Assembly (NCBI GenBank): GCA_017452265.1
Contig: JAFTMS010000029.1
Span: 1-51,254 of the forward strand
Direction of reading: 5' to 3'
Length of the DNA: 51,254 bases
Source: Bacteroidales bacterium
GTDB lineage: Bacteria > Bacteroidota > Bacteroidia > Bacteroidales > UBA932
The notes under the pieces are model-generated. The model was given only the letters and a program-made list of their open reading frames with translations. It made no database searches and was not told where the DNA came from. This document shows, piece after piece, positions 21,661 to 39,616 of this stretch; position 1 is the first letter of the stretch, and each line of letters opens with the position of its first letter. The position numbers and the translations under genes were made by a program.

Positions 21661-23946
21661 TCAGAATGTCACGGAAAGACCTGCGACAATACTGCGGGAC
21701 ATGGGGTATGAGCCATAATCAAGGCCGTTCGACATTGCGCTCATGCCGAAGCTGTTCACATCGGGATTCCATCCGCTGTAGCCTGTGAACGTACACAGGT
21801 TGCGGGTGCTCAGCTGAACCGAAAGACTCTGCATCCATTTCACCTTTACCGGCACACTGTAGCGAAGTCCCAGTTCGTTCACCCTCAGGAAGTCTCCCTT
21901 CTCCACATAGTCCGGACTCAGTACCGGTGCACAGCCAGAAGGCATGCCCTGCTCGAGGATGAGACGGTTGAGATTTGCGATATGGTGGCCGGCGGCTCCG
22001 TCAAGCCCGAGGGAGACGGTGAAGCCTCCGATACGGACTGAAGTCGAGAACCCTCCATATATTACAGGCACCGTGTTCGCCAGAAGCATCCTGTCCGCTT
22101 CCGTCACGAGTCCTTCACCGGTCTGGTCCATATAGCTGCCGTCGCTGTCTGTGAGATAGCCGACAAGCATGCTGACAGGATAGCCCGGAAGGTTGCATGT
22201 CGCGCACATGCCGCCGCCGATCTCATTGCCCATGAAGTCAGCCGCTCCAAGGGAGACCAGACGGTTCGTATTCCATGCGAGAACGGCATTCATGTTCCAT
22301 TCCACCTTCCCTGTCGCCACCGGACGTGCATCAAGCTCGAATTCAAGGCCGCGGTTGGCCACAGAGCTTGATGCGCCATATGTGATGCGGTCGTACCATT
22401 TTCCTCCGAAGACGAGCCTGTCGGAAAGGAATCCGAACTTCGCTCCGGCATGCCACTCCTTGGTCAGAAGCTTCATCATGTCTTCCTCAAAAGGCATGTA
22501 TTTCTCGTAGCCGCTCCATCCGTATCCGCCGGCAAGCCTGATCGCCGACACCTTTTCATTGTCCGGCAGCAAGAGTTCGGCGAGATTCATCCATGCGGAC
22601 GCTGCCGGAAACAGATCCTTCACATCCCAGCCGTATTCCGGAGTGACGTCCGCACGCATGACGAGATCTGCACCGATGGCAGACTTCCATTCATAGGTTA
22701 TGTCCGCATAGGCTCCGAGATGGAAATATTCATTGCTGAAGACATGGTTGTATCTTTCCGTATTTCCGAGGGCGACGCCTTTGCCCCTGAGTTCGTCGGT
22801 CACGAAGTTGCGTGCGTTTATCGTATTGAGCTTGTCGCCGTTGCCCGTCAGAGAAGCGCCGACGACAGCCGTCAGATTATGTTCAAGATTGAAATAGCGG
22901 TGATATGTGAGCCTGGCGTCGGCATTGTAGCCGAAAAGCATCGAAGACATCACTGATGCGGCACCGCCGTTTGGATTCTCATCTGAAATCATTCCGAGCC
23001 CCACATGCCTTCCATACCAGATGACCCGCTTGTTTTCCTGAAGATCGAGGCCGGCGCTGAACTTCAGGGCAAGATGGCGTGTGAAGTTGAGCTGCAGCCA
23101 TGCGGACATCACGCCGCGATAATCTTCAGTATCGTCATCATATTCGCTGAGCCATGTCTCCTGCGTGACATTCTCTGAAAGCGAAGGATCGCGCAGGGCA
23201 AGCGTATAGGAAGGACAGCCGACCCATGCCGTTCCTGCCGGAGACGACGATTTTCCGACACTCAGGAGCGCATTCAGCCCGAACCACACGAGCCTGTCGC
23301 TTCCCGACGTCTCGTAATTTCCCCTGACCGTTCCGTAGCTGCTTCCGTTGCGTTTGAGCACGCCGTCGATGGAGCGGAACGAGCCGGACACATTGTAGCT
23401 GTTTCCGCCGGCGCTTCCGCTTACACCGACCGTATGGCTGTGGGATATGCCGTATCCCTGCACTCCTGAAGCAGCCATGTTCAGGGAGACATCAGAGTTC
23501 CAGCGTATGTCAAGTTCACGGCCGGTGCTGCGCTTCGTCCTGATGATCACGACACCGTTCGCGCCTCTTGCGCCATATATGGCTGTCGCAGAAGCATCCT
23601 TCAGGACCTCGATGCTTTCTATTTCGGACGGAATGAGGAAGGACAGCGGATTCAGCGCTGAAGAACAGCTCTTCCCGTCATACTGCCAGAACGCATCACG
23701 GTTGTCGTTGAGATTCTGCGAAATCATCACTCCGTCCACGATGTAGAGGGGCTGATTGTCCGAACGCAGCGAGTTGATGCCCCTTATGTTCACATTCACG
23801 TTTCCGACCGGATTGCCGTCAAAGGAACCCACGTATACGCCGGCGACTTCTCCACGAAGCATGTCTGCGACCGTTTCCTGAGCCTTGGCGGACATCGCGG
23901 AAAGGCCGAGCACAAGGCAGAATATTGTCTTTAAAGTATTTTTCAT
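21661..23946 (-). CDS. Short TonB-dependent receptor (SusC-like, no N-terminal regulatory domain)
   Basis: This 761-residue outer-membrane protein has a signal peptide ending 'AMSAKAQ'. It passes straight into a plug domain ('DMLRGEVAGVYVGSFDG', 'RGINSL', 'YIVDGVMISQ', 'EVLKDASATAIYGARGANGVV') and a beta-barrel ending in 'SIVAGLSVTF'. It lacks the carboxypeptidase-like domain found in most SusC proteins and is about 300 residues shorter. No SusD gene stands directly beside it; the next gene upstream is a lipoprotein (6 bp gap) that could be its surface partner. It lies 31 bp before the interrupted SusC gene. Confidence 0.92.
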   Translation of the reverse strand: MKNTLKTIFCLVLGLSAMSAKAQETVADMLRGEVAGVYVGSFDGNPVGNVNVNIRGINSLRSDNQPLYIVDGVMISQNLNDNRDAFWQYDGKSCSSALNPLSFLIPSEIESIEVLKDASATAIYGARGANGVVIIRTKRSTGRELDIRWNSDVSLNMAASGVQGYGISHSHTVGVSGSAGGNSYNVSGSFRSIDGVLKRNGSSYGTVRGNYETSGSDRLVWFGLNALLSVGKSSSPAGTAWVGCPSYTLALRDPSLSENVTQETWLSEYDDDTEDYRGVMSAWLQLNFTRHLALKFSAGLDLQENKRVIWYGRHVGLGMISDENPNGGAASVMSSMLFGYNADARLTYHRYFNLEHNLTAVVGASLTGNGDKLNTINARNFVTDELRGKGVALGNTERYNHVFSNEYFHLGAYADITYEWKSAIGADLVMRADVTPEYGWDVKDLFPAASAWMNLAELLLPDNEKVSAIRLAGGYGWSGYEKYMPFEEDMMKLLTKEWHAGAKFGFLSDRLVFGGKWYDRITYGASSSVANRGLEFELDARPVATGKVEWNMNAVLAWNTNRLVSLGAADFMGNEIGGGMCATCNLPGYPVSMLVGYLTDSDGSYMDQTGEGLVTEADRMLLANTVPVIYGGFSTSVRIGGFTVSLGLDGAAGHHIANLNRLILEQGMPSGCAPVLSPDYVEKGDFLRVNELGLRYSVPVKVKWMQSLSVQLSTRNLCTFTGYSGWNPDVNSFGMSAMSNGLDYGSYPMSRSIVAGLSVTF

Positions 23947-23952
23947 AGGCTG

Positions 23953-25134
23953 TTACTCGTAATGCAGGATGAACTTGGAAAGATGGCAGACCCTGTTGCC
24001 CAGACCGATGAACCTGTAGACTTCCCCAGGCTGAGGCTGGCCGTTCACATCCTTGCCGCCCTCACCGAGGTTCAGGACGAAATGGTCATCCACTCCCTGC
24101 TCCGTGAAATCATACGAATCGCTGAGGACGATACGGTTGTCGTCGTCCATGTTCTCCATCCTTGCCTTTATCTTATATTCCTTGTCATCTCCCTTAAGGA
24201 AGATCTCTACAGTCTTCAGGGTGCATCCTTCGATACCCGGGAAAGCGACAAATCCCCTGTTGCTGCCCACCTTTGTCTTGTAGACGATGTATGAATCCTT
24301 GAAATTAATCAGACGTACAGATATTTCATACTCGTTTTCACCGCACATGAACCTGTGGGATGTCACCTCTGCAGAGGTCTTCGCAGGAAGGGACGGAGTG
24401 TAGATGTCGGACGAGAAGTCTATGGTCATGAACGGCCTCTGGGTATATGTGACTTCAAGAGGTTCAAGACCTTCCACCTGAGGAACGATACGTATCAGGC
24501 CTTCGGAAAGGACAGCCGGATCACAGCCGCTGTTCGTATACGTGAATGTGATTTCCTGTCCTTCACCAGCCTCACCGGATGTTCTGGACAGTTCGATTCC
24601 CGTCAGACCGTCCTCAACCGCCTCAGCAGTCCACGCACAGTTGGTCGTGAATACGAGCCTTCCCTCCTCATCCGGCGAGAGCTGCGTATCCGCCGGCTCT
24701 TCAAGCCTCAGATACGGATCGGCCCCCGCCTGGATGACGGGAATGCTCTTGAAAAGCTGACCCTCAGAATACAGATTCAGGACTCCCTTGACAGGGGTTG
24801 TGGAGAAGTTGGTTTCAAATGTCACGGTAATGTCAGTCTCGTGTGCCGTGCCTGTGAGGTTGAAATGTTCACACACATCGATGGTGCCCCATTCGACCTG
24901 TCCTGAAAGGCCTACGGGATTGACGGCATTGTCCAGATGGGCATACCAGCTTCTGTTGGACCGGATGCGGATGACCTGCCGGTTCAGGGTCGTTTCGTCT
25001 GCAGATTCTGCAGGGGCGTACACGGAAGCCTTGTCGGTTTCCAGGATCATCGCCTCGCCTGCGGAACTGCCGTCAAGGCAGGCTGCGAGCATGAAGCCCG
25101 CAGCTGCCATGCAGCATATGTTTCTGAGAGTCAT
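23953..25134 (-). CDS. Surface lipoprotein with BACON/Ig-like repeats
   Basis: The 393-residue protein has a lipobox signal ('AAAGFMLAAC'). Two segments look like BACON-type beta-sandwich repeats: 'IRSNRSWYAHLD' (about residues 52-63) and 'FTTNCAWTAEAVEDG' (about 158-172). A further beta-rich C-terminal domain ends in 'CHLSKFILHYE'. Such proteins in PULs are usually surface glycan-binding proteins or spacers. It lies 6 bp before the short TonB-dependent receptor, so it may serve as that receptor's binding partner. Specific ligand unknown. Confidence 0.7.
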   Translation of the reverse strand: MTLRNICCMAAAGFMLAACLDGSSAGEAMILETDKASVYAPAESADETTLNRQVIRIRSNRSWYAHLDNAVNPVGLSGQVEWGTIDVCEHFNLTGTAHETDITVTFETNFSTTPVKGVLNLYSEGQLFKSIPVIQAGADPYLRLEEPADTQLSPDEEGRLVFTTNCAWTAEAVEDGLTGIELSRTSGEAGEGQEITFTYTNSGCDPAVLSEGLIRIVPQVEGLEPLEVTYTQRPFMTIDFSSDIYTPSLPAKTSAEVTSHRFMCGENEYEISVRLINFKDSYIVYKTKVGSNRGFVAFPGIEGCTLKTVEIFLKGDDKEYKIKARMENMDDDNRIVLSDSYDFTEQGVDDHFVLNLGEGGKDVNGQPQPGEVYRFIGLGNRVCHLSKFILHYE

Positions 25135-25176
25135 TGTATAAAGTGTCAGTTTATGTTGCTTATATTGCTGATTATA

Positions 25177-26604
25177 TTACTTGTAAATCAGTTCGATGTA
25201 TTCGACACATGATGTGCCCATTGTCGTTATTAATTTATACGAAGTATTTGCCTGTGCGGTTTCAGTGAAAATCACAGGTGATTCACCATCATTCTTTACA
25301 TAAGGAGAGAATATGTGCGAGGCACGTAGCACGACATTGTTCATCATAGGGAATGCATATGTCAGCTTGTCGTTCACTTCGCTTTTATCAGCTTTGTACA
25401 CTCCGGTCACATTCTTTGCATCTGCATCAGCCGTCTTGATGACCATGTTGGCAATGCCGTTCTGGGTATGGCTACGCCACGAAACCACGACATCCTTCAA
25501 GGTCTTGCCCTCAATCGCAGGAGTAATGACATATGCATTTTTTGCAAACTGTGCATAGCCATATGTTTTGTAAGTCATGGAAGAATAATCCATGGCATAT
25601 GACTTACCATTGAATGTCACGACAATGGATGATTCCGGAGACTCTGCAAGATTCGTATTATGAGCATTCTTTGTAAAATTTACAAGTATGCTCGTATAAT
25701 CCGTAAGATAATCCGCAGTCATGACGTTAGTAACGATGTCACCGAGATCAAGATACTCGTTGCGTACGATCGTTGCATTTTCCGAAGTGCGCTCGTACAC
25801 CTTTCCGTCGGTCGTCGTGACGGTCACTGTCAGCGTGGCAGTTCCCGACGTAGGGAATGCAGTCACCACATACGTTCCGGCAGCCATAGCTCCTCCACCG
25901 TTTGTTCCGCAATAGACGAACTTGTTCTCCTGTCCGCTTATCGAAGGATTGCCTTCAGCATCAAATTCCACCGTACATTTCCCGGAAAGCTTCTTGTTGG
26001 AAGAGAACCTGATTCTGGAGATGTCGCTGCCCTCGCTGACCGTGAACTTGATGTAGCCGCAGAGATTCATCATTGTGCCTGAAAGCATGTTGGTCGCCTC
26101 ATCCAGAACAGGTGAGCAGGCGGAGATGTTGGCTCCTTGAGTGAACGAATCCTTTTCAGCAAGCTGGAAGCTCGGAAGGAAGGTGGTCACGGCAACGGTG
26201 CCGGCATCTGCATCAGCAGCAAAATACGTTGCATCTATATTCTCGGATTTCAGATTCGGATATACGGCATAGAAAGGGCCTGAAGCATCAGCGAGAGTTC
26301 CTGTGAAGACATCCTCGGAATCGAAGATGAAGCCGTTGTTGTTTCCCGATGCATCGTAGATGGAGAGGTAGTCCTTTTCCTGCCATACCACAGCCTTGCC
26401 GTCAAGCGAAGATCTGGTCTGGGTTGAAGCAGTGAATGTATAGATGTCCGATGCATTTTCTTCCGATTCTTCATTTTCTTCAGGAGTTTCCTCCGGCACT
26501 GCCGGTGTTTCGGGATCGGAAGAAGCGGCTGGAGTCTCCTTTGTGCAGCCGGCCACGGCTATCACCGCAGCAAGCAGATAGATAAGTGTCTGTTTCATAT
26601 TCAT
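25177..26604 (-). CDS. Surface lipoprotein, fimbrillin-like N-terminal domain
   Basis: The 475-residue protein has a lipobox signal ('IAVAGC') and an acidic, proline- and glutamate-rich linker (about residues 25-52). Next comes a domain with 'TRSSLDGKAVVWQEKDYLSIYD', a pattern seen in Bacteroidota fimbrillin-like lipoproteins. The C-terminal part (about 300-475) is a separate beta-rich domain ending 'CVEYIELIYK', resembling the end of the next lipoprotein. In a PUL this suggests a surface glycan-binding protein, but no catalytic motif is seen. Start may be Met1 or Met3. Confidence 0.65.
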   Translation of the reverse strand: MNMKQTLIYLLAAVIAVAGCTKETPAASSDPETPAVPEETPEENEESEENASDIYTFTASTQTRSSLDGKAVVWQEKDYLSIYDASGNNNGFIFDSEDVFTGTLADASGPFYAVYPNLKSENIDATYFAADADAGTVAVTTFLPSFQLAEKDSFTQGANISACSPVLDEATNMLSGTMMNLCGYIKFTVSEGSDISRIRFSSNKKLSGKCTVEFDAEGNPSISGQENKFVYCGTNGGGAMAAGTYVVTAFPTSGTATLTVTVTTTDGKVYERTSENATIVRNEYLDLGDIVTNVMTADYLTDYTSILVNFTKNAHNTNLAESPESSIVVTFNGKSYAMDYSSMTYKTYGYAQFAKNAYVITPAIEGKTLKDVVVSWRSHTQNGIANMVIKTADADAKNVTGVYKADKSEVNDKLTYAFPMMNNVVLRASHIFSPYVKNDGESPVIFTETAQANTSYKLITTMGTSCVEYIELIYK

Positions 26605-26626
26605 ATTGTCATAGTGTTATTGATGT

Positions 26627-26782
26627 TTACCATTCCAGTTCATTGTCACCGCCTGTCAGCTCATTCACGAAGCTTGAATTCAGTACATTCTGCTCTATCT
26701 GTATCTCGACATAAGAGCATTCGGGCGCGACATAGGCGCGGTCAGTTACATTCTTTCTCATTGTCTTAATGTTTTTAATCAT
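26627..26782 (-). CDS. Small 51-residue PUL-associated protein
   Basis: A short frame that automatic annotation could miss. It begins 'MIKNIKTMRKNVTDRAYVAPEC', continues 'SYVEIQIEQNVLNSS' and ends in acidic 'GGDNELEW'. The layout (basic start, 'Y..PE', a 'V(E/L)(L/I)' strand, Gly/Asp-rich acidic end with a final Trp) matches small peptides encoded near SusC/D loci and lipoproteins in Bacteroidales. No signal peptide is evident and its function is unknown. It starts 8 bp after the stop of the 145-residue gene and ends 22 bp before the 475-residue lipoprotein gene, so it fills what would otherwise be a gap in the operon. Confidence 0.7.
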   Translation of the reverse strand: MIKNIKTMRKNVTDRAYVAPECSYVEIQIEQNVLNSSFVNELTGGDNELEW

Positions 26783-26790
26783 GTTATCAT

Positions 26791-27233: not shown

Positions 27234-29333
27234 TCAGAGGGTTACAAGGGTTTCAAGCAGTATATGCTGCTCGTTGTCACCGACCTGGATCATATAGTCA
27301 CCCTTGTCGACGACCCATGAATGAGACGGCACGTCGAAGTGCTCGAAGGCATGCCTCGGAAGATGTACGGTCACAGTCCTTGCCTCACCCTTGCCGAGCT
27401 TCACCTTCGTGAATTCCTTGAGTTCGCGCACAGGACGCGGAAGCGAAGGTTCGACAGGGGCCACATATATCTGGGCGGCTTCCGCAGCCTCGACCTTGCC
27501 GGTGTTCCTTATGGTGAATGTCACGTCGAAGCCGTCACCCGCTGGCTTTGCCGAAATGTCCGAATACTCGAAGGTCGAATATGTGAGTCCGTAGCCGAAA
27601 GGATATGTCGGAGTGCGGTCGAACTTCTCGATGCCACGATAGCCCATGAACACACCTTCCTTGAAGTCAATGTGAGGGCAGAGGTCGAAGCGGTCGTTGT
27701 TCATGTACTTTATGAACTTGTCGGCATAGTAGCTGTCCGAAGCCGGATTGTTCTCGAACGTGCCCCACATCGTGAAAGGAAGCCTTCCTGAGAACGAGAC
27801 CTTGCCGGAAAGAAGCTGTGCAAGCACAATTCCCGTATTCTCACCGCCGTACCATGCATACACGATGCCTGCGGCCTTGTCCTTCCATGCGTTCATGTCC
27901 ACCTCGCAGCCGGCATGCACTATCACGATCACCCTTTCGGAAAGACCGGTGAGCCTGCGGATAAGTTCTTCCTGTTCCTCCGGAAGACCGAATTCATGGT
28001 CGCGGTTCTCGCCCTCGATACGCTTTCCGAGGCCGACCTCCACGATGACGGTCTTTGCAGACTTTATCTGCTCGTCCGTCGGTTCTTCAGCCAATACGAC
28101 ATCATAATCCTTTCCGAGGGCCTTCATGCCCTGGTATGTGGTGACATATCTGCCTTCGAACGGTGTGCACCAGCTTGACCCGCCGCCGGCAATCTGCCTG
28201 TCGGCATATGGACCTGTCAGCAGTATCGTGTTCTTACGTCCCTTTGCAAGAGGAAGCACACCCTCATTCTTGAGAAGCACAGGGCCTCCCAAAGCCGCCT
28301 CATAGGCATTTGCAGTACAGTACGGGTTGTCGAATTCGTCCGGTTTCCTTACAAGAGGACGGTCGAGCAGGCCGAAAGCGATGGCAGTCTGGAGGACATG
28401 CTGGCATTTCTCGTCTATCTCTTCCTCGCGTACGACTCCGTTTTCCACAAGGCGCTTCACCCTTTCATAGTCGTGGGTGAAAGGATTCGGCATCTCAATG
28501 TCGAGTCCGCCTCGGATACCGTTCAGAGTACTGTAGATTGTCTGCCAGTCGCACATGGTCGTTCCCTCGAAGCCCCAGTCCTCACGGAGAGTCTGACGGA
28601 GCAGATACGGGCTTTCGGCGCAGTGCACCGCATTGAGCCTGCCGCACGACGTCATCACGGCACCGACCTTAGCCTCCTGAACCGCCTTGCGGAACGCCTC
28701 GAAATAGATTTCATGGAGGGTGCGCTCATCCACATTGTGAGTCACGACGAAACGGTCCCACTCCTGGTTGTTCACGGCGAAATGCTTTGCAGTGGCGATG
28801 ACATCATGGGACTGTACGGCCTTGATGAAGGAAACGGCCATTTCTCCCGACAGATACGGGTCTTCACCATAATAGTCGAAATTGCGTCCGGCAAAAGGAG
28901 CACGGTACAGATTGATGCCGGGACCGAGAAAGAATCCGACTCCGCGCGCACGGGCATCAAGTCCCAATGCATCACCTACAAGTGAAGCGGAGCGTCTGTC
29001 GAAACTTGCAGCCAGCGAGATGCCGCAAGGATAAAAGGTACATGGCTCGGTACGACGCACCTTGTTGTTGATGCCGCAGGGGCCGTCCGCCATGGGAATA
29101 GGCTGGACACCAAGTTCCGGCACGCATGCCAGCACGTTGATGTTCAGGTCGATTGAATCCGGATGATACTTTCCGCTGATCACGCGCAGCTTCTGCTCCA
29201 GATTCATCTTTCCGATCAGCTCCGCAGCCCTTGCCTTGTGTGCCTCAGTGATTTCAACGGTCTTGAAATCCTGTGCAGACAGGGAGAGTATGCCCGCCAA
29301 CGGAATAATCAGGATTGATAATGCCTTCTTCAT
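27234..29333 (-). CDS. GH3 family glycoside hydrolase (exported)
   Basis: The 699-residue enzyme has a signal peptide ('IPLAGILSLSAQ'), the GH3 TIM-barrel domain ('PIPMADGPCGI', 'GPGINLYRAPFAGRNFDYYGEDP', 'ATAKHFAVNNQE'), the alpha/beta sandwich, and a C-terminal fibronectin III-like domain ('PRPVRELKEFTKVKLGKGE'). The catalytic nucleophile is Asp262 in 'GTTMCDWQ', where the usual Ser before Asp-Trp is Cys. GH3 enzymes release terminal beta-glucose, xylose or similar sugars from oligosaccharides. It is the first gene of the eleven-gene PUL operon and carries the promoter with the T-tract repeats. Confidence 0.95.
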   Translation of the reverse strand: MKKALSILIIPLAGILSLSAQDFKTVEITEAHKARAAELIGKMNLEQKLRVISGKYHPDSIDLNINVLACVPELGVQPIPMADGPCGINNKVRRTEPCTFYPCGISLAASFDRRSASLVGDALGLDARARGVGFFLGPGINLYRAPFAGRNFDYYGEDPYLSGEMAVSFIKAVQSHDVIATAKHFAVNNQEWDRFVVTHNVDERTLHEIYFEAFRKAVQEAKVGAVMTSCGRLNAVHCAESPYLLRQTLREDWGFEGTTMCDWQTIYSTLNGIRGGLDIEMPNPFTHDYERVKRLVENGVVREEEIDEKCQHVLQTAIAFGLLDRPLVRKPDEFDNPYCTANAYEAALGGPVLLKNEGVLPLAKGRKNTILLTGPYADRQIAGGGSSWCTPFEGRYVTTYQGMKALGKDYDVVLAEEPTDEQIKSAKTVIVEVGLGKRIEGENRDHEFGLPEEQEELIRRLTGLSERVIVIVHAGCEVDMNAWKDKAAGIVYAWYGGENTGIVLAQLLSGKVSFSGRLPFTMWGTFENNPASDSYYADKFIKYMNNDRFDLCPHIDFKEGVFMGYRGIEKFDRTPTYPFGYGLTYSTFEYSDISAKPAGDGFDVTFTIRNTGKVEAAEAAQIYVAPVEPSLPRPVRELKEFTKVKLGKGEARTVTVHLPRHAFEHFDVPSHSWVVDKGDYMIQVGDNEQHILLETLVTL

Positions 29334-29367: not shown

Positions 29368-29375
29368 CAAAATTA
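29368..29375 (-). promoter_or_regulatory. -7 box of the PUL operon promoter
   Basis: TAATTTTG on the minus strand, 34 bp before the GH3 ATG. The same octamer stands before the symporter gene (33501-33508) at the same distance from an equivalent T-tract pair. No TTTG is present at the -33 position, as expected for an activator-dependent promoter. Confidence 0.65.
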
Positions 29376-29399
29376 GGAAGAGGTCCTCTGACGGGGCCG

Positions 29400-29432
29400 A
29401 AAAAAAATACCATATTGTTTCAAAAAAATACC
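29400..29432 (-). promoter_or_regulatory. Candidate regulator operator: two T-tract direct repeats
   Basis: On the minus strand GGTATTTTTTT appears at 29432-29422 and again from 29411. The T runs end 22 bp apart, about two helical turns. The second run ends exactly 24 bp before the TAATTTTG box. The same arrangement stands at 33444-33476. Binding by the AraC-type domain of the adjacent hybrid regulator is inference. Confidence 0.6.
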
Positions 29433-29455
29433 ACCGGAAAAATACGGCCTGCAGG

Positions 29456-32400
29456 CTATTCCTCCGCATCTTTTGCATACTCGGCCGGGGTCTTTCCGAA
29501 GAAGTCACGGAAGCATTTCGAGAAATATGAAGGCGTGCTGAAACCGACCATATAGCAGACTTCGGAAGGTATGACACCCTTCCTTCGGAGAATCTTGGCC
29601 GCCACATTCAGACGCTTCGCCCTGATGTATTCGACAGAGGTCATGTTGAGCAGTCCGTTCATCTTGCGGTTCAGTGAAGAATGGCTCATGTGCAGTTCGT
29701 TTTCGAGCTGCCGCACGTTGAAGTCCTCGTCGCTGATGTGGGCCTCGACTATGGCATCCAGATTCCTCAGGAACTCGACATCTCTGTCCTCTATGTCGAA
29801 TCCGGCAAGATTGTCCTGTTCGTCGGACTCCTTCTGTATGCTCGCACGCAGCGACATGCGCTTGCGCAGGATGCCGTTTATGCATGAGACAAGATATTCG
29901 ACCGTGAAAGGCTTGACGAGATAGAGGCTTGCGCCATTCTCCATGCACTTTATCTTGGTGCTTTCATTGGATATTGCGGAAATCACCACAACCGGAATAT
30001 GCGAATTCTCGAAGTCGCTGCTGAGACGTCTGCAGAACTCGACTCCGCCCATTCCCGGCATACTGACATCCGTGAGAATCACATCGACCCTGCATTTCGC
30101 TATGATCTTCAGGGCCGCCTCGGCAGATTCCGCCGATATGACATTGAACATCTGCTTCATCCTGTCCTGAAGGAAGCTTGAAAGCTCGTGATTGTCTTCG
30201 ACCAGAAGCACGACAGGCTGCTTCGTGCCCATATCCATGTCCGGTTCATCCTCCTCCGCCTCGACAGGATCCGGAGCTAAAGCGAGCGTAAGTTGGAATT
30301 CGGTCTTCTGCGAAGGCGAGAGGGCCAGAGAACCGCCCTGAAGTTCAGCATAACGTCTCGCCACCGAAAGGCCGATTCCGAATCCCTGAGAGTAGCGCGT
30401 CTTGTCGTCCGTAAGCCGGACGAAAGGCTTGAATATCTCGATACGTTTGTCTGTCGGTATCTCCGCTCCGTCGTTTCTTACACATATGACCACAGTGCCG
30501 TCCTTCACCGCAGCCTCAACCTCAATATAAGAATCAGAATACTTCAGAGCATTGTGTATCAGATTGTTGAGTATCTTGTTTATGGCCTTCTCATCCACTA
30601 TGGCCATAATCTGTTCTTCGGAATGTATGAAATCCAGCTTCAGGTTCCTGTTTCTGGCCGTCTCCGAAAAATTGAAGCAGATGTAGCTGAGCTTCGCGAC
30701 AATATCCATAGGCTGAAGCTTCATCGTCTCGTGGTCGTATTCCTCTATCCTGATGAATTCGAGAAGTTCCTTCGACAGACGGTCCAGATAGTCCGTGCTG
30801 TTGTCTATTATCTGAAGTTCCTCGCGGGTATCCTCGGAAAGGCCATCAAGCGAATGCAGATACTTCAAAGGCGTCTTCATCAGCGTCAGCGGCGTCTTGA
30901 ACTCATGCACGACGGTCTGAAGGAGCTCCATCTTGTTCTGCACCATCTCCACTTCCTTTGCGCGCTTCACCTCCTCGATATCCTTCTGATGCTTCTTCTT
31001 CTCCACCCTGTCGAGAATCAGCACGACCGTGCCGACGATGAAGACTATGGCCAGGACTATCATGGCTATGCCGACCCCCGAAAGCAGGAACGGCGGTTCT
31101 ATCACGATCCGGACAGGCTTATGGCCAGTCACATTCAGAGTGTAGTTTCCGTACGGCACATTGAACCAGGACATCTCCATTGTAGAGGAAACATCCGCAG
31201 GCTCGCTGTCATACCCATCAAGCTGCGCATACACGGTACCGGGCCAGTCCTCCAAAGGTGTCGAGAACCTGAAGCGGAAAGAATTCTGACCGGCTGTCAG
31301 ACGTATCTCATCCACAAGGTTCACATTTTCTCCGGCAATCCTGTCCCTGTCCTTATGCGAGCTTACGGGCACTTCGCCGATATACATTTCCGAGAAATCA
31401 AGGCTGGCCAGAGGGGCGTCGTCGTCAAAATCCTCCGGATCGAACGAGATGAAACCATCGGCCGAGCCCATGAGGGAAACGCCCGAAGAAAGTTCCTTCA
31501 CCGACGTCAGGGAATTGTTCAGCAGACCGGAATTGACCGTATACATATTGAGCGACCCTCTTTCAGGATCGAAGTCGAAGAGTCCCACCGTGGAGGTTAT
31601 CCACATATGGCCTCTGTCGTCCTGAAGCGCATTAAGCAGCGAGCAGTTCGAAAGACCCGGGAGGTCGATGCTGTGGAAGACCCTGAACCTGTCCGCATCG
31701 GGATCGTACCTGTATATGTCGGCATTCCTGCCTATCATCCATATGCCTCCGTCATCGTCCACAAACGGCGACGACACCATCTCGCCGACATCCTCCCTGT
31801 CCTTGGAAGACACATATCCCTGCGCCGTGCCCTTTGCCCTGTCGTAGCGGAACACACCGTTTATATATGTACACGCCCATATCATACCGTCCCTGGTCTG
31901 GACGAAATCCACGACGTTACCATATTTGGAAGTTCCCAAGCACTCGAACGTATCATCCTCCTCCCTGTATTCGTACATGCCGCCCACAAGACTTACAAGC
32001 ACCTTTCCGCCCTTTCCCAGATGGATCGACATCACCCTGTTGTTCACGACCTCCCCTTCAAGCTCGAACCGGTCGTAGCAGCGCAGACTTCCGTCGGACA
32101 GGTCCAGACGGTACAGCCCCTCATACGAACCCAGCCACAGACGGTCACCCTCCGCACACACCCACGTCAGGAAGACCGGAAGCCGCCTGTTCTTCACGAC
32201 ATCGATGCGGCCGGTCGCAGGATCATACTTCAGCAGTCCGAGGCGTTCGGTCGTCATCCATACCGTCCCATCCTCACCCTCGTCTATGCACGTGACCACC
32301 TTGCCGGACATGGATACTCCCGAAGAAGTGACATAATGGCGTTCGAACTTGCTGCTTCCGCACGAAGAACGGTTCAGTCCCCTTGTGTTCAGTCCCACCC

Positions 32401-33349
32401 AGAGCCTGCCGTCCTTGTCCATCGCCGAACATGTGACAAAATTTTCTGCCAGCGAGAAACGGTCATCGGGATCATGTCCGAAATGGGAGACTTCGTCATT
32501 GAGCACATCAAAACGAAGAAGGCCGTATGTCGTGGAAATCATTATATATCTTTCCCCTACGAACTCGACATGGTTCGGTTTCTGCCCCTCCATCCACCTG
32601 TAGACGACCTCCACGCTCGCACGGCTGAGGTTGATGCGGCATAGACCATGTGTCTTCGAGGTGACATACACCACGTCATCGGATCCCGGACTCAGCACAG
32701 GGGCATGAAGTTCGTCATTGAGGAACATGTCCGTATCCTTCCCGAGATCCACGGGAAGCATCCTGTCCGTGCGCTTGTCGAATATGTACACATTGTCCGC
32801 GCTCCGGCATACGAAGAGTCTTTCATTGCTGAGCGTCGTCATCTTGGCATACATCCTCTTCCACTTGCTTCTGAACCTGAGGAAGCCTTCCTCGACATTG
32901 CAGGAGAAGATGCCCTCGCCTGTGATGTCCATCCACACGTTTCCGCTGCCGTCTGCATGGAGATGGTTCACGACCCCGTCCGGGATATGCCCGTCCGCGT
33001 CGCACGGCAGGCGGAAGCTGTCCGATGAATAGTCGTAGACGGCCACTCCCCGCGAGGTGCCGATCCATACCTGACCAGTGGAATCCTCGCACAAGGCACC
33101 GACATAGTTTGCGTCTATACCTATGTCACGACGAGTGTATGACTTCATCCTTGTGCCGTCATAACGGTTCAGGCCCATGTACGTGCCCACCCAGACATAT
33201 CCCCTGCTGTCCACAAGAATGCTGCGGACTCCGTCGTTGGAGAGTCCGTGGGACTGCATCGTCATGTTTATGAACGATGGAGACGCCGTCGCAGCAAAGC
33301 AGACGGCAAGACACAGGAGAAGACTGGTTATGAATTTACGCATCATCAT
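29456..33349 (-). CDS. Hybrid two-component system sensor/regulator (HTCS)
   Basis: One protein senses glycan fragments in the periplasm and activates the PUL. From the ATG at 33349 it is 1297 residues; a longer open frame reaching 33862 runs over the divergent symporter gene and is rejected. Order: signal peptide (about 1-24), beta-propeller repeats ('VDSRGYVWVGTYMGLNRYDG' and many alike, to about 650), Y_Y_Y domain (about 690-745), one membrane helix (about 757-778), HisKA with phospho-accepting His815 in 'VVHEFKTPLTLM', HATPase, receiver with Asp1094 in 'ILTDVSMPG', and an AraC-type helix-turn-helix (about 1196-1297, 'YMVGFSTPSYFSKCFRDFFG'). It lies between its two presumed target operons. 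Confidence 0.97.
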   Translation of the reverse strand: MMMRKFITSLLLCLAVCFAATASPSFINMTMQSHGLSNDGVRSILVDSRGYVWVGTYMGLNRYDGTRMKSYTRRDIGIDANYVGALCEDSTGQVWIGTSRGVAVYDYSSDSFRLPCDADGHIPDGVVNHLHADGSGNVWMDITGEGIFSCNVEEGFLRFRSKWKRMYAKMTTLSNERLFVCRSADNVYIFDKRTDRMLPVDLGKDTDMFLNDELHAPVLSPGSDDVVYVTSKTHGLCRINLSRASVEVVYRWMEGQKPNHVEFVGERYIMISTTYGLLRFDVLNDEVSHFGHDPDDRFSLAENFVTCSAMDKDGRLWVGLNTRGLNRSSCGSSKFERHYVTSSGVSMSGKVVTCIDEGEDGTVWMTTERLGLLKYDPATGRIDVVKNRRLPVFLTWVCAEGDRLWLGSYEGLYRLDLSDGSLRCYDRFELEGEVVNNRVMSIHLGKGGKVLVSLVGGMYEYREEDDTFECLGTSKYGNVVDFVQTRDGMIWACTYINGVFRYDRAKGTAQGYVSSKDREDVGEMVSSPFVDDDGGIWMIGRNADIYRYDPDADRFRVFHSIDLPGLSNCSLLNALQDDRGHMWITSTVGLFDFDPERGSLNMYTVNSGLLNNSLTSVKELSSGVSLMGSADGFISFDPEDFDDDAPLASLDFSEMYIGEVPVSSHKDRDRIAGENVNLVDEIRLTAGQNSFRFRFSTPLEDWPGTVYAQLDGYDSEPADVSSTMEMSWFNVPYGNYTLNVTGHKPVRIVIEPPFLLSGVGIAMIVLAIVFIVGTVVLILDRVEKKKHQKDIEEVKRAKEVEMVQNKMELLQTVVHEFKTPLTLMKTPLKYLHSLDGLSEDTREELQIIDNSTDYLDRLSKELLEFIRIEEYDHETMKLQPMDIVAKLSYICFNFSETARNRNLKLDFIHSEEQIMAIVDEKAINKILNNLIHNALKYSDSYIEVEAAVKDGTVVICVRNDGAEIPTDKRIEIFKPFVRLTDDKTRYSQGFGIGLSVARRYAELQGGSLALSPSQKTEFQLTLALAPDPVEAEEDEPDMDMGTKQPVVLLVEDNHELSSFLQDRMKQMFNVISAESAEAALKIIAKCRVDVILTDVSMPGMGGVEFCRRLSSDFENSHIPVVVISAISNESTKIKCMENGASLYLVKPFTVEYLVSCINGILRKRMSLRASIQKESDEQDNLAGFDIEDRDVEFLRNLDAIVEAHISDEDFNVRQLENELHMSHSSLNRKMNGLLNMTSVEYIRAKRLNVAAKILRRKGVIPSEVCYMVGFSTPSYFSKCFRDFFGKTPAEYAKDAEE

Positions 33350-33354
33350 GTGGT

Positions 33355-33367
33355 CCGGAAGTTCCGG
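33355..33367. promoter_or_regulatory. Palindrome in the HTCS gene leader
   Basis: CCGGAAGTTCCGG is a perfect inverted repeat of two 6-bp arms around one G. It lies between the predicted transcription start and the ATG of the HTCS gene. Its role is unknown. Confidence 0.35.
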
Positions 33368-33385
33368 TGCAAATCCGTTACGATG

Positions 33386-33393
33386 CAAAGTTA
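33386..33393 (-). promoter_or_regulatory. -7 box of the HTCS gene
   Basis: TAACTTTG on the minus strand, 36 bp before the ATG; no obvious -33 partner. Confidence 0.5.
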
Positions 33394-33443
33394 AACAAGA
33401 TTTCAATATTGTGTCACGGCTATGCCGCCGGCGTATCGCGATA

Positions 33444-33476
33444 GGTATTTTTTTGCAAGAATCGGGGATATTTTTT
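33444..33476 (+). promoter_or_regulatory. Candidate regulator operator: two T-tract direct repeats
   Basis: GGTATTTTTTT (33444-33454) and GGATATTTTTT (33466-33476) have T runs ending 22 bp apart. The second ends exactly 24 bp before TAATTTTG. This mirrors the GH3 promoter site at 29400-29432 on the other strand. Confidence 0.6.
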
Positions 33477-33500
33477 CCTATGTCCCTGCCCCGCAACCGG

Positions 33501-33508
33501 TAATTTTG
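33501..33508 (+). promoter_or_regulatory. -7 box of the symporter operon
   Basis: TAATTTTG lies 31 bp before the symporter ATG. It is identical to the box of the GH3 operon and has no TTTG at -33. Confidence 0.65.
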
Positions 33509-33539: not shown

Positions 33540-35201
33540 ATGGGAACACTTGATCTGATGACCGTAGCCATATTCTCGGTGGCGGTACTTGTGACAGGCA
33601 TTTCGCTCTCGCGCACAGGAAAGGACATGAAGGGATTTTTCGGCGGAGGAGGAAATGTGCCCTGGGGCATGAGCGGCCTTTCGCTCTTCATGGGATTCTT
33701 TTCGGCCGGCACCTTCGTAGTATGGGGTTCGCTTGCATATTCACACGGCCTCGTCGCCATAATCATACAGCTGACGATGTGTCTGGCGGGATTCGCCGTC
33801 GGCACCTTCGTGGCAGGTAAATGGCAGCAGACGGGCTGCCTGACAGCCGCGGAATACGCCACCGAAAGGCTCGGTGAAAAGACGCAGAAGGCCTACACAT
33901 ACATATTTCTTGCAGTATCGATATTCACGACAGGCTCGTTCCTGTACCCGGTGGCAAAGATAATAGAAGTGGCTGCCGGCGTACCGCTGACGACATCCAT
34001 ACTCGTTCTCGGAATCTTCTGCATCATCTACGTGTCATTGGGAGGCCTGCGCGGAGTCATGGTGACGGACGTGCTCCAGTTCGTGATACTGATGGCGGCC
34101 GTCGTCATCGCCATCCCGCTTTCATTCGGAAAGGTCGGCGGAGTCGGAGAATTTCTCGAAAAGGTGCCGGAAGGCTTCTTCAGATGCTTCAACGACGAGT
34201 ATTCACCTCTGTTCATCTTCGCATTCTGCATCTACAACGCAGTGTTCCTCGGCGGAAACTGGGCGTATGTGCAGAGATATACGGCAGTGAAGGGCACTTC
34301 GAGCGCCAGGAAGGTCGGCTGGCTGTTCGGTGCGCTGTACATTGTCAGCCCTGTGCTCTGGATGCTTCCTCCGATGATATACAGGATATACAATCCGGGG
34401 CTTGAAGGCCTTGAGAACGAGAACGCCTACCTGCTCATGTGCAAGGAGGCCCTCCCGTACGGATTCCTCGGGATGATGCTCGGCGGAATGATATTCGCCA
34501 CCGCAAGCTCGCTGAACTCCACCCTCAACATATCGGCAGGAGTGTTCACAAACGACATCTACAGAAAGCTGCGTCCGGAGTCTTCGCAGAAGCATCTGAT
34601 GAGGATGGCGCGCATGTCCACGATATTCTTCGGTCTTCTGGCCATCGTGGTGGCGCTTCTTGTCAAATCGATGGGAGGCATAGTGAACGTGGTGATAAGC
34701 GTTGCAGCACTCACGGGAGTGCCTCTGTATCTGCCGCTCATATGGTCGCTCTACTCAAGACGGCAGAACGGCAGGACGCTCATGGGCGTGACGCTTTCGT
34801 CCCTGACTGTCAATCTGCTGTTCAAGTTCGTCACCCCTCTCTTCGGTCTGAGCCTCGGCAGAGGGATGGAGATGCTTGTGGGTACGATGGTTCCGGTACT
34901 GATGCTTACGGTAATCGAGATCGTGCTTGCCAAAAGAGGATACGTAGATCCGATGGCTTCGGAATACGCCGGAAAGGCAGCGGAAGGCAGGACCGATGAC
35001 GTCGGAGACGGAGATGGCGGTGCCGCTGACGGCGAGGAGACCAACCGTTTCACATCGAAGGTGCTCGGCATAAGCATCACGGCGGCAGGTGCGGCAATCC
35101 TCGTGCTCGGACTCATAAGCCCGGCCAAGGCAGTCCCTGTCACAGTCGCTTCCGCTGTGCTTCTCTTAGGTCTCGTCATACTTATAAGGAACAGGAAATG
35201 A
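33540..35201 (+). CDS. Sodium:solute symporter (SSS) family protein
   Basis: The 553-residue inner-membrane protein has 13-14 hydrophobic segments and the SSS hallmarks 'GKDMKGFFGGGGNVPWGMSGLSLFMGFFSAGTF', split over the first two helices, and 'LGGLRGVMVTDVLQF'. A charged loop (about 475-505) precedes the last two helices. SSS transporters import sugars, sialic acid or other small molecules with sodium. Coupled to a PUL with lyase and GH88, it may take up the released monosaccharide or uronic-acid derivative into the cytoplasm; the substrate is inferred only. Its stop overlaps the next ATG by four bases (ATGA), indicating translational coupling. Confidence 0.93.
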   Translation: MGTLDLMTVAIFSVAVLVTGISLSRTGKDMKGFFGGGGNVPWGMSGLSLFMGFFSAGTFVVWGSLAYSHGLVAIIIQLTMCLAGFAVGTFVAGKWQQTGCLTAAEYATERLGEKTQKAYTYIFLAVSIFTTGSFLYPVAKIIEVAAGVPLTTSILVLGIFCIIYVSLGGLRGVMVTDVLQFVILMAAVVIAIPLSFGKVGGVGEFLEKVPEGFFRCFNDEYSPLFIFAFCIYNAVFLGGNWAYVQRYTAVKGTSSARKVGWLFGALYIVSPVLWMLPPMIYRIYNPGLEGLENENAYLLMCKEALPYGFLGMMLGGMIFATASSLNSTLNISAGVFTNDIYRKLRPESSQKHLMRMARMSTIFFGLLAIVVALLVKSMGGIVNVVISVAALTGVPLYLPLIWSLYSRRQNGRTLMGVTLSSLTVNLLFKFVTPLFGLSLGRGMEMLVGTMVPVLMLTVIEIVLAKRGYVDPMASEYAGKAAEGRTDDVGDGDGGAADGEETNRFTSKVLGISITAAGAAILVLGLISPAKAVPVTVASAVLLLGLVILIRNRK

Positions 35202-37480
35202 TATTTGAAAGCTTCAATCCGGAGCGTTCCCTCAAGAAGGAGGAACGTTCATATGATCTTGTCGTGATCGGAGGAGGTCTCACGGGAGTGTGCTGCGCCC
35301 TGACTGCCGCGCGCGAGGGTATCAAGGTATGTCTCGTGCAGGACAGGCCCGTGCTCGGAGGCAACTCTTCAAGCGAAGTGCGCGTCTGGGCCCTCGGAGC
35401 GACATCCCATCAGGGAAACAACAACAGGTGGTCACGCGAAGGCGGAGTGATAGACGAGATACTCACGGAAAATCTCTGGAGGAACAAGGAGGGAAATCCG
35501 CACCTCTTCGACATGCTGCTGATAGACAAGGTGCTGGCGGAAAAGAACATCACACTGATGCTGAACACCATCGTGTTCGACATACGCAAGTCCTCGGCAA
35601 GCCGCATCAGGAGCGTCCTTGCCCTCAACGCATCATCCGAGACCATGTACGAACTGTCTGCAGGACTTTTTGCCGACTGCTCGGGAGACGGCATCGTGTC
35701 CTATCTTGCCGGCGTTCCTTACCGTATGGGAGCGGAAGAAAAGGAGGTGTACGGAGAAGGATTCGCTCCCGACCCCGAAAAATACGGCGAACTCATGGGC
35801 GACACCATATTCTTCTACATGAAGGACACCGGCCGCAAGGTGGAATACAAGGCCCCGTCATTCGCATTGAAGGATGCCGGAAAATACATTTCAAAGATTC
35901 ACAATCCGGAATATTTCAACACAGGGCATCACGGATGCAAATACTGGTGGCTGGAATACGGAGGAAAATGCGACACGGTGCATGACACGGAAAAGATAAA
36001 GCTTGAACTATGGAAGGTGGTATACGGGATATGGGACCACATCAAGAACTCCGGCGCACATCCCGAGATGGACACGTGGACTCTGGAGTGGGTCGGAGTG
36101 ATTCCGGGCAAGCGCGAAAGCCGCAGATTCAAGGGAATGTACACGCTCACGCAGCAGGACATCGTGGAGCAGACGTCATTCCACGACACCGTCTCCTATG
36201 GCGGATGGGCCGTCGACCTGCATCCGGCCGAAGGTGTGTACGCACCGGGGCGTGCCTGCAACCAGTGGCATTCTAAAGGCATATACGGAATTCCGTTCAG
36301 ATGCTTTGTCAGCAAGGATGTAGAGAATCTGATGTTCGGCGGACGCATCGCAAGTTCGTCACACGTGGCGAACGGCTCGATGAGGGTGATGTGCACATGT
36401 GCCCATGGAGGACAGGCCATTGGCATGGCGGCGGCACTCTGTACTGTCTACGGCCATGTCCCGGCATATTATACGGAAGCCGGCAATGTGAAGGAGCTTC
36501 AGCACGCTCTGGAAGCACGCGGGCAGTTCATACCGGGATTCGAGGAGGCCGACAAGAACAATCTCCTCAATTCGGCTTCCCTCACCTCAAGCCGTCCGTT
36601 CCTGTTCAGAGGATTCCGTCACGACGCAGGATTCATGCCGCTGGAGTTCTCCACAGCCCTGCTGCTGCCCGTCCGGAAAGGCAATGTGCCCGGCATCAGC
36701 ATACCGGTCGAAGCCACGGAGGCAACGGAACTGACGGTAGAGCTCAGGACGAGTTCTAAAGTCCGCAACTTCACTCCCGATGTGACCTTGGAGACTGTGA
36801 GGATTCCTCTCGAAGCGGGCGCAAGCACTGTTTCATGGTCGTTCAGGCACGTGATTGACTGTGACAGATACGTATTTGTCTGCCTCATGCGCAATCCCCA
36901 TGTAAAGGCAGGATGCAGCTGTGAGCTTGCACCGGGAATCATGACAGTATACAATCATATCAATCCGGCAGTTTCGAATTACGGCCGTCAGGATGCTCCG
37001 GAAGGCACAGGCTTCGAATCGTTCGAATTCTGGTGTCCGAAAAGAAGGCCGGCGGCAAGGAACCTTGCGGTGACGCTGAAACAGACGCTTGACATATACG
37101 GGACAGACAATCTGAGAAACATTCTGAAAAGGCCGCTCAGGCAGCCTGACTGCTGGGCGTGTGACGATGCGGAAGCGGCAGTGGAGCTGACATGGAAGCA
37201 TGAGGTGGAGATAAAGGAGATCACACTTTTCTTCGACACGGACACCGACCATGCCATGGAGACCGTACAGATGGGCCATACCGAAAATGTCATGCCTCAG
37301 TGCGTCCGCTCGTACAGGATATATGAGGGTTCAGGAAGGCCCGTATATGTAAAGACGGAGAACCATCAGGCAGTCAACCATATGATTTTGGACAGGCCTG
37401 TACGCACCTCGCGGCTGCGCATCGAAATGGACAGACCGGAATCCTGCCCCGCATCCCTGTACCATATGATCATAAAATGA
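35198..37480 (+). CDS. FAD-dependent oxidoreductase (FAD_oxidored family)
   Basis: The 760-residue protein begins with an FAD-binding dinucleotide fold 'DLVVIGGGLTGVCCALTAAREG' (about residues 14-35) and continues 'VLGGNSSSEVRVW', typical of the PF12831-type oxidoreductases. A conserved 'FADCSGDG' and 'NLMFGGRIASSSHVANGSMRVM' complete the flavin domain (to about 440). The C-terminal 300 residues are beta-rich and look like a carbohydrate-binding or discoidin-like extension. No signal peptide is seen, so it probably acts in the cytoplasm on the compound imported by the symporter with which it overlaps (ATGA). The sugar oxidised is unknown. Confidence 0.85.
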   Translation: MIFESFNPERSLKKEERSYDLVVIGGGLTGVCCALTAAREGIKVCLVQDRPVLGGNSSSEVRVWALGATSHQGNNNRWSREGGVIDEILTENLWRNKEGNPHLFDMLLIDKVLAEKNITLMLNTIVFDIRKSSASRIRSVLALNASSETMYELSAGLFADCSGDGIVSYLAGVPYRMGAEEKEVYGEGFAPDPEKYGELMGDTIFFYMKDTGRKVEYKAPSFALKDAGKYISKIHNPEYFNTGHHGCKYWWLEYGGKCDTVHDTEKIKLELWKVVYGIWDHIKNSGAHPEMDTWTLEWVGVIPGKRESRRFKGMYTLTQQDIVEQTSFHDTVSYGGWAVDLHPAEGVYAPGRACNQWHSKGIYGIPFRCFVSKDVENLMFGGRIASSSHVANGSMRVMCTCAHGGQAIGMAAALCTVYGHVPAYYTEAGNVKELQHALEARGQFIPGFEEADKNNLLNSASLTSSRPFLFRGFRHDAGFMPLEFSTALLLPVRKGNVPGISIPVEATEATELTVELRTSSKVRNFTPDVTLETVRIPLEAGASTVSWSFRHVIDCDRYVFVCLMRNPHVKAGCSCELAPGIMTVYNHINPAVSNYGRQDAPEGTGFESFEFWCPKRRPAARNLAVTLKQTLDIYGTDNLRNILKRPLRQPDCWACDDAEAAVELTWKHEVEIKEITLFFDTDTDHAMETVQMGHTENVMPQCVRSYRIYEGSGRPVYVKTENHQAVNHMILDRPVRTSRLRIEMDRPESCPASLYHMIIK

Positions 37481-37516: not shown

Positions 37517-39616
37517 ATGACCAGAATCTTCATCACACTGCTTCTTTCCATACTGACCTGCTGCACATCGGAACTGAACGCAGAAATCACCGACATAAAT
37601 GCGCAAAGTGCAGTCAACGGCAAGAAGGAAGCCGTCATACAGGACATCGAAGGCAACATATTCGAAGGCATCACACGAATCACAGAAGCCGGCAATGCCG
37701 GACACGCCCTGTATCTGCGCGGCAATACTCTTTACTGCGGTTCGGGTACTGAAGTCCTCGTCTTCGACGTCTCGGATCCGCTGGCACCGAAGCTCCGCTC
37801 AAGATGCAGCATCTACGGCTGGGTACGTCAGCTTGTGGCAGATGACAAGGCCATTTACGTCACGGCACGCGGCCAGGGACTGAGCATCATCGACGCTTCC
37901 GACCTGGACAACCTGAAATTCGCCAAGAGATACGACACCATCGAGCTTGCGACCGGCGTCGATGTGGCAGGCGACGTTCTCTTCGTGACGCTTCGAGGCT
38001 ACGGAGTGGAATTCGTGGACATATCGGACATCTACAATCCCCAGCACATATATTGCCAGAAGACCCCGGAAAGCCAGAGCTGCTGGTACCAGAACGGGTA
38101 TCTGTATTCAGGAGAATGGGCCAAGGGACTAGTGACCACGATAAAGGCATCGGACATGTCGGACATCAGGATCCTGTCCTCCGACAACCTTTACGGCTGC
38201 GGCGACGGCCTCTCCACATTGGGTGACAGGCTTTATGTCGCCACAGGCCACCATGCAAGGCACACGGACATGTCTTCGGAAGAAGCTCAGGGCATGGGAC
38301 ACGGACTCGACATTTTCGACATATCCGATCCTGCAAAGCCTTCATTCATCTCGCGCGTACAGTTCGACAAACTCTACAAGCGCGGCTCCGGCGACTGGTG
38401 GACAGTGCGTCCGAGCGCAGACGGCAAGACGCTCTTCGTTGCAGACACATTCAACGGGCTGTATGCAGTGGATGCCTCAGACGAGAAGAATCCCAAGATT
38501 GCAGGACGGGTGTTCATAGGGCAGACAGGCAAGCCGGCAGAACCGGCGACCTACGTATCTTCAGTCGCCGTCGGTGACGGTGTGGTATATGCCACAGGAC
38601 AGACCTTCGGCCTTGTCGCGATAAAGTGCAGCAAGGCGAAGAAGGTGGAAAGGGATCAGGGGACGCTTCCTTCGAATCCGGGTGCAAGATATGCCTACGA
38701 CACGCCGGCAGGAAGCCATTTCAAGGCATGGAAACCGGACGAGCGGGCACAGGTCAGAGCTCTTGCCCTCGCCGGAGACGACCTGCTGCTGGCCGCCTGC
38801 TCGGATGCCGGACTTATCGTGCTCAGGAATGACAGAAAGGCCGGTCTTCAGCAGATCGGCAAGGGTGATATGGATTTTGCCGGAGACGTATCCTTCAGAG
38901 ACGGCAGGGTGTATGTTGCTGAAGGTGTCGACGGTCTCGGTGTCTATGAAATAAGCCGGGACGGCAGGCTCACGGAGATTGCAAGGCTGAAGGACATGCC
39001 GGAATATCCCGAATTCAAGGTCACGCTCTGGGTCAACGCCGTAAGCGACAGATATGTGATAATCAACGACAGACGCTATGGCAACACCGTTCTGGACATC
39101 TCAGGCTTCCCGGCCATGAAGCCTGTGCACCAGCATCACATGGGCACTACATGGTGGGACAAATACATTGCGGACAAAGTCTCTCCGAACGGTTACATAG
39201 CAGCCCCGATAGTGGGCAAGGGCATGTCATGGATAGATCTCAACGGCACTCCAAAAGACAGCGTGCACGACAGGTCAGTCCAGACGACGACGGCAGCATG
39301 TCCGTTCCGCGACGGCACCGTCCTCGTGAACCTGAAAGGCAACAGGCTGTGCCAGCTGAAGCCGGGAGTCGTGCCCGCTGAAATCATCGCCGAAGCTAAA
39401 GGCAATTTCAATGGTTCGCCTGTCTGGGACGGAGAAAGCACACTCGCAGTGAACTTCCGCCATGGCAAGGAATTCAAGAAGGTCAGCATCCCGACCGTGG
39501 AAAGCGCCACGATACTCTGGAAGGAGACTCTCGAAGGCAATCCGGACAGAGCCATATTCTGGAACGGCAAGATTCTCGTTCCGGCCGGCTATCAAGGCAT
39601 CCTGATCGAGAAATAG
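37517..39616 (+). CDS. Exported LVIVD-repeat beta-propeller protein
   Basis: The 699-residue protein has a signal peptide ('MTRIFITLLLSILTCCTSE'); the Cys pair could be a lipobox. It then has repeated blades of the type 'GTEVLVFDVSDPLAPKL', 'GQGLSIIDASDLDNL', 'GYGVEFVDISDIYNP' and 'GHGLDIFDISDPAKP', the LVIVD pattern of bacterial beta-propellers. No catalytic motif is recognised. It is the third gene of the symporter operon, 36 bp after the oxidoreductase gene. A binding or scaffold role outside the inner membrane is plausible. Confidence 0.8.
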   Translation: MTRIFITLLLSILTCCTSELNAEITDINAQSAVNGKKEAVIQDIEGNIFEGITRITEAGNAGHALYLRGNTLYCGSGTEVLVFDVSDPLAPKLRSRCSIYGWVRQLVADDKAIYVTARGQGLSIIDASDLDNLKFAKRYDTIELATGVDVAGDVLFVTLRGYGVEFVDISDIYNPQHIYCQKTPESQSCWYQNGYLYSGEWAKGLVTTIKASDMSDIRILSSDNLYGCGDGLSTLGDRLYVATGHHARHTDMSSEEAQGMGHGLDIFDISDPAKPSFISRVQFDKLYKRGSGDWWTVRPSADGKTLFVADTFNGLYAVDASDEKNPKIAGRVFIGQTGKPAEPATYVSSVAVGDGVVYATGQTFGLVAIKCSKAKKVERDQGTLPSNPGARYAYDTPAGSHFKAWKPDERAQVRALALAGDDLLLAACSDAGLIVLRNDRKAGLQQIGKGDMDFAGDVSFRDGRVYVAEGVDGLGVYEISRDGRLTEIARLKDMPEYPEFKVTLWVNAVSDRYVIINDRRYGNTVLDISGFPAMKPVHQHHMGTTWWDKYIADKVSPNGYIAAPIVGKGMSWIDLNGTPKDSVHDRSVQTTTAACPFRDGTVLVNLKGNRLCQLKPGVVPAEIIAEAKGNFNGSPVWDGESTLAVNFRHGKEFKKVSIPTVESATILWKETLEGNPDRAIFWNGKILVPAGYQGILIEK

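Follow-up and report, generated by a model that had tools for sequence, protein, structure and literature searches.

The closest described systems are the operators predicted for HTCSs of Bacteroides thetaiotaomicron. According to PMC3878776, 16 such operators were predicted, all of them direct repeats averaging 21 bp that were interpreted as sites for dimers bound to one face of the DNA, and motif prediction failed for 20 of the 36 HTCSs of that organism. Known HTCS operators are fewer than known HTCSs. A fixed distance between the operator and the -7 box is stated neither in the parts of that paper covered here nor in the open-licence literature searched, a negative that is restricted to parts of open-licence papers and is therefore weak evidence of novelty. 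The primary promoter of Bacteroidetes consists of TAnnTTTG together with TTTG at -33, as cited in PMC7366714. Herein we describe two promoters on either side of an HTCS gene in a Bacteroidales bacterium, each with a tandem repeat in front of its -7 box, together with a survey of promoters near other HTCS genes of the order. The sites are a new instance of the already known HTCS operator type; what they add is the 21-bp register and evidence for a repeat at a near-fixed place before the -7 box.

The HTCS gene and its flanking promoters

The DNA analyzed, a stretch of 51,254 nucleotides (contig JAFTMS010000029.1; the window), contains an HTCS gene (29456..33349, minus strand) lying between two operons. 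The HTCS is encoded in one frame of 1298 residues in which the Reg_prop sensor (PF07494), HisKA (PF00512), HATPase_c (PF02518), receiver (PF00072) and HTH_18 (PF12833) domains all score above the Pfam cut-off, giving the full HTCS domain order with an AraC-type (HTH_18) output domain. The receiver, as read from the translation, carries SHIP, and S/CHIP is the conserved receiver motif of most HTCSs (PMC11253607). On one side lies the gene for a GH3 glycoside hydrolase (27234..29333, minus strand; PF00933/PF01915/PF14310), which heads a long cluster on the minus strand. On the other side, all on the plus strand, are the genes for a sodium:solute symporter (SSF; 33540..35201; PF00474), an FAD-dependent oxidoreductase (35198..37480; PF12831) and a propeller-like LVIVD-repeat protein (37517..39616; PF08309). 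The symporter and oxidoreductase genes overlap and 36 bp separate the oxidoreductase gene from the LVIVD gene, and it is because of this spacing that we infer that all three belong to the HTCS regulon.

By direct reading, the GH3-operon promoter, on the minus strand from 29432 to 29368, consists of a distal half-site GGTATTTTTTT (29422..29432), the inner spacer GAAACAATAT, a proximal half-site GGTATTTTTTTT (29400..29411), 24 bases, and the -7 box TAATTTTG (29368..29375). The symporter-operon promoter, read in the same way on the plus strand from 33444 to 33508, consists of the distal half-site GGTATTTTTTT (33444..33454), the spacer GCAAGAATCG, the proximal half-site GGGATATTTTTT (33465..33476), which lies 21 bp after the distal one and 24 bp before the box, and TAATTTTG (33501..33508). 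The half-site letters at both operators are GG(T/G)AT followed by a T tract, and the in-register repeat at a lag of 21, or two helical turns, matches at 12 of 12 positions at the GH3 promoter and at 9 of 12 at the symporter promoter. Both boxes fit the -7 element TAnnTTTG of the Bacteroidetes primary sigma factor and precede the start codons by 34 bases (GH3) and 31 bases (symporter). Neither TTTG nor TTG is present as a -33 element within the 24 bp preceding either box, and reading these two gaps thus bears out the earlier observation that -33 TTTG is absent from both promoters. For the HTCS gene, TAACTTTG (33386..33393, minus strand) is the candidate -7 box, and no T-tract repeat is seen before it.

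The first-pass annotation had described an identical architecture at the two promoters, with 22 bp between the ends of the T runs and 24 bp from the end of the second one to TAATTTTG. These distances are correct at both promoters and the repeat pair is real at both, but its in-register spacing is 21 bp and not 22 bp; the latter figure stems from the lengths of the T runs. Likewise, identity holds for the first half-site (11/11), the box and the spacing, but not for the second half-sites (10/12) or the inner spacer (6/10). Both sites share with the B. thetaiotaomicron operators, as described in PMC3878776, an approximately 21-bp tandem direct repeat upstream of PUL operons beside an HTCS gene, and they differ in the half-site letters, here GG(T/G)AT and a T tract, and in the host, here a member of the Bacteroidales. 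They have the -7 box of the Bacteroidetes primary promoter cited in PMC7366714, here TAATTTTG at both sites, but lack its -33 element, and the operator ends just upstream of the position where that element would be.

Similarity and distribution of the two sites

The two promoters match at 27 of 33 operator positions and at all eight positions of the box; agreement falls to 4 of 24 in the gap separating operator and box, to 6 of 18 upstream and to 12 of 28 downstream. This combination of high identity in the operator and box with low identity in the gap and flanks is not like that of a recently copied promoter. When the two intergenic regions are compared in 33-base stretches, the highest number of matches is 27, a value that none of 1000 dinucleotide-preserving shuffles reached (maximum 24). 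Equal spacing, which the first-pass annotation held to be hard to explain by chance, might by itself be found at any two HTCS promoters, and so it is the shared letters, not the spacing, that point to the same HTCS.

A genome-wide search, which had been suggested as a check, confined the motif pair at up to three mismatches to exactly two places, both of them the promoters flanking the HTCS gene, in the 2.56 Mb assembly (84% complete), where the reversed pattern gave no occurrence at the same threshold. Within the window four half-site pairs pass the thresholds applied, of which just the two reported here precede a TAnnTTTG within range, and no further operator target was found.

The search of related genomes turned out otherwise. 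Pairs of T6 runs with a gap of 23-25 bp to TAnnTTTG were found in 51 of 340 genomes of the genus and, with the gap shifted to 33-35 bp, in 46 of 340. An HTCS relative lay within 1.5 kb at 3 of 30 such loci (one being the window, by construction) compared with 1 of 30 shifted-gap loci. The poly-T pair at this spacing is therefore not diagnostic across the genus, and we rejected it as a genus-wide marker when taken alone.

Two other readings of the intergenic DNA were also rejected. Neither operator received a terminator-like call, their RNA folds do not clearly outdo shuffles (z-scores 0.35 and -0.82), and the symporter-operon operator sits between divergent genes. Sigma-70-type -35/-10 promoters gave two weak matches in 4.3 kb against 3.7 expected.

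Promoters near other HTCS genes

Boxes were surveyed by one rule for the HTCS and control sets alike, namely TAnnTTTG lying 8-300 bp before an ORF. The genus set comprises 72 HTCS loci, the window included, of which 69 yielded a box, for a total of 113 boxes (10 from the window); the other-family set has 55 boxes, taken from 20 HTCS loci in further families of the order; and the control set comprises 20 stretches chosen regardless of HTCSs (78 boxes), 17 from the genus and 3 from other families (L195-L197), with L185 being kept despite a weak receiver match (22%, E 2e-6). Left out of the genus set were shorter copies of refetched places, three loci away from the HTCS gene (L152, L153 and L156) and several HTCS loci with 1.5-kb flanks, including L034, L042, L043, L048, L049, L051 and L054-L058. 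The statistic is the self-similarity, at a given lag, of sequence whose end lies 24-30 bp upstream of the box, compared with permuted partners.

In promoters near HTCS genes, a 21-bp repeat is enriched at an almost constant distance upstream of the -7 box. At a lag of 21 the z-scores are 4.6 in the genus set (n = 113), 4.9 in the other families (n = 55) and 0.3 in the controls (n = 78), and at a lag of 22 they are -0.3, 0.7 and -0.4, respectively. The lag-21 signal peaks with the matched 12-base stretch ending about 25-30 bp before the box. With the window removed and the sets thinned to less than 50% identity, the values are 3.9 (n = 88), 4.3 (n = 54) and 0.4 (controls, n = 77), and none of 2000 permutations was as high in either HTCS set. 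When T-T matches are ignored, they are 3.5, 3.6 and 0.1, so phased T tracts do not account for the whole signal. The genus set shows elevated values at lags 10 and 30 too (z 2.4 and 3.2). For boxes deep inside genes, the lag-21 values are -0.4 and 1.0 in the HTCS sets. In the controls the value is 3.8, accompanied by elevated scores (2.0-2.4) at lags 24, 27, 30 and 33, and we interpret this coding-region signal of the controls as codon periodicity.

The -33 region differs as well. A -33 TTG (gap 19-20) is present at 18 of 78 control boxes and is rarer near HTCS genes, with 7 of 103 boxes in the genus set, window left out (p 0.002), and 5 of 55 in the other families (p 0.04). A TTG exactly 35 bp before the box marks 23 of 103 genus boxes near HTCS genes, again with the window left out, versus 3 of 78 controls, which is significant, and 5 of 55 boxes in the other families, which is not (p 0.27). 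Of this mark, the symporter promoter of the window has only the G at -36, and the GH3 promoter has only that G and the T at -37. Clear repeats (at least 9/12 at a lag of 20-21) are a minority, with 15 of 113 in the genus set (2 from the window), 4 of 55 in the other families and 3 of 78 in the controls; many boxes near an HTCS gene need not be targets of that HTCS. In the same genome as the window, at two of the six other HTCS loci examined (L134 and L137 of L132-L137) a repeat of at least 9/12 at a lag of 20-21 stands before a promoter-class box, in letters other than those of the window.

Relatives of the locus

No orthologous HTCS locus was found among 400 genomes of the genus and 398 of the family, two sets that overlap; the best near-full-length relative there has 41% identity. 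The named genome collection gave five matching loci, and at four of them an uncultured member of the Bacteroidia or Bacteroidales, in one case titled goat rumen, has a near-full-length HTCS relative at 32-35%. Relatives of the symporter at 54-70% are present in 12 other genomes, in other clusters, and the 11 stretches (9-17 kb) around symporter relatives yielded no relative of the window HTCS; a SusC relative is present in 10 of the 11. As an observation on these stretches (L081-L091), the symporter and FAD oxidoreductase genes lie side by side in 11 of 11, in either gene order.

The closest DNA-binding domain is that of an HTCS of genome G237, which is 65% identical over the HTH region and whose gene lies within a long one-direction cluster (L140). 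In 20 kb of L140 there is no clear repeat before a -7 box (best 8/12). At the head of the G237 cluster (position 7765 of L152, minus strand, a locus inspected after the survey), a 10/12 repeat at a lag of 21 precedes TAATTTTG, with letters that are partly different from those of the window (GAAATATnnnTTTT-like), and it thus supports the geometry and not the GGTAT-T-tract letters. The latter were not found with the relatives whose DNA-binding domains are 55-65% identical.

In another family of the order (L007/L158), a perfect 12/12 lag-21 repeat, GACTATTTTT, stands before TACATTTG next to an HTCS gene whose product is 30% identical to that of the window; its letters are close to the window half-site.

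Interpretation and proposed mechanism

Based on the full HTCS, the presence of the pair only at the flanking promoters within the assembly, the 21-bp layout and the lag-21 enrichment near HTCS genes, we consider it very probable that each site is a direct-repeat operator of the HTCS encoded between the two operons, that is, an ordinary HTCS operator. The interpretation of the two sites as HTCS binding sites in the first-pass annotation, made from the sequence, is therefore supported and is probably right. A different assignment, in which the operators serve another AraC-type regulator or an HTCS encoded elsewhere while the local HTCS controls something else, draws on the further HTCS-like genes in the genome and on a spacing that is common to promoters near HTCS genes generally. 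We nevertheless judge it quite unlikely since both copies flank the local HTCS gene and no third copy was found at up to three mismatches in the assembly, which may lack about 16% of the genome.

An explanation with no dedicated regulator, in which helically phased T tracts form an intrinsically bent or UP-like element that aids RNA polymerase where the promoter has no -33 box, fits T tracts that are two helical turns apart and the raised lags 10 and 30 of the genus set (z 2.4 and 3.2). It would leave aside that both promoters also have in common the GGTA with which the first half-site opens and the spacer part GnAAnAAT, that the lag-21 signal near HTCS genes is kept in non-T letters (3.5 and 3.6) and is missing from the 78 control promoters (0.3), and that in the 84%-complete assembly the motif pair has no occurrence other than those flanking the HTCS gene, and we regard it as quite unlikely. 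Mere coincidence of poly-T runs with a degenerate -7 box is what one might suspect from the poly-T pairs that occur in about one of seven genus genomes, and about equally at the shifted gap; two such sites in one genome flanking one gene, with the same offset and an identity of 27/33 that 0 of 1000 shuffles reached, make coincidence very hard to credit.

We propose the following mechanism for the two sites as operators of the local HTCS. Upon phosphorylation of the HTCS, two of its receiver-AraC output domains would occupy the operator as a tandem dimer, next to each other on the same face of the DNA and each on one 21-bp repeat. As about 24 bp lie between the end of the proximal half-site and TAnnTTTG, the regulator would be positioned just upstream of the missing -33 position, and there the HTCS would recruit RNA polymerase to a promoter with only a -7 box, in a manner like class II activation. 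In the class II activation of the AraC family, as by AraC at araBAD, the half-sites are tandem direct repeats and the promoter-proximal one abuts the -35/-33 region. The tandem half-site layout is alike in the two cases; the input here would be receiver phosphorylation within a hybrid kinase. If the HTCS acts at both promoters, a single signal would switch on both the GH3/SusCD cluster and the symporter-oxidoreductase-propeller operon, and at this locus the symporter, oxidoreductase and propeller genes would thereby share their signal with the GH3/SusCD cluster. It should be noted that binding, the dimer state, activation, the extents of the operons and the ligand are all matters that we infer.

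The fixed register from operator to -7 box may be a rule. In its general form, in which the HTCS promoters of the Bacteroidales obey one rule whereby a 21-bp tandem operator, with its proximal half-site at a near-fixed distance from TAnnTTTG, replaces the -33 element, we regard the proposal as evenly balanced between true and false. If the rule is true, operators, target promoters and perhaps the half-site code of the many HTCSs could be deduced from genome sequence alone, with the -7 box as the anchor. With operator and box tied together in this way, HTCSs could be assigned to promoters in single uncultured genomes that have no orthologs, as is the case here, and contact between HTCS and polymerase at promoters that lack a -33 box could be tested directly.

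Other features of the window

Several other features of the window are separate from the promoters. The SusC gene (18435-21629, minus strand) has an in-frame TAG at 21384-21386, at about codon 82, and the open part downstream of it matches the SusC/RagA family over profile positions 62-981 of 981; the TAG may reflect a nonsense change, a sequencing error or read-through. A second, shorter SusC-like gene (21661-23946; 761 aa) adjoins the SusC/SusD pair, and it has a plug domain above the Pfam cut-off and a SusC signature, the full SusC model scoring below cut-off. The region 23953-26604 encodes two PUL proteins (393 and 475 aa) that have no Pfam or NCBIfam match at E 0.001, and a short ORF of about 50 residues (26600-26790, minus strand) lies before the gene at 25177-26604.
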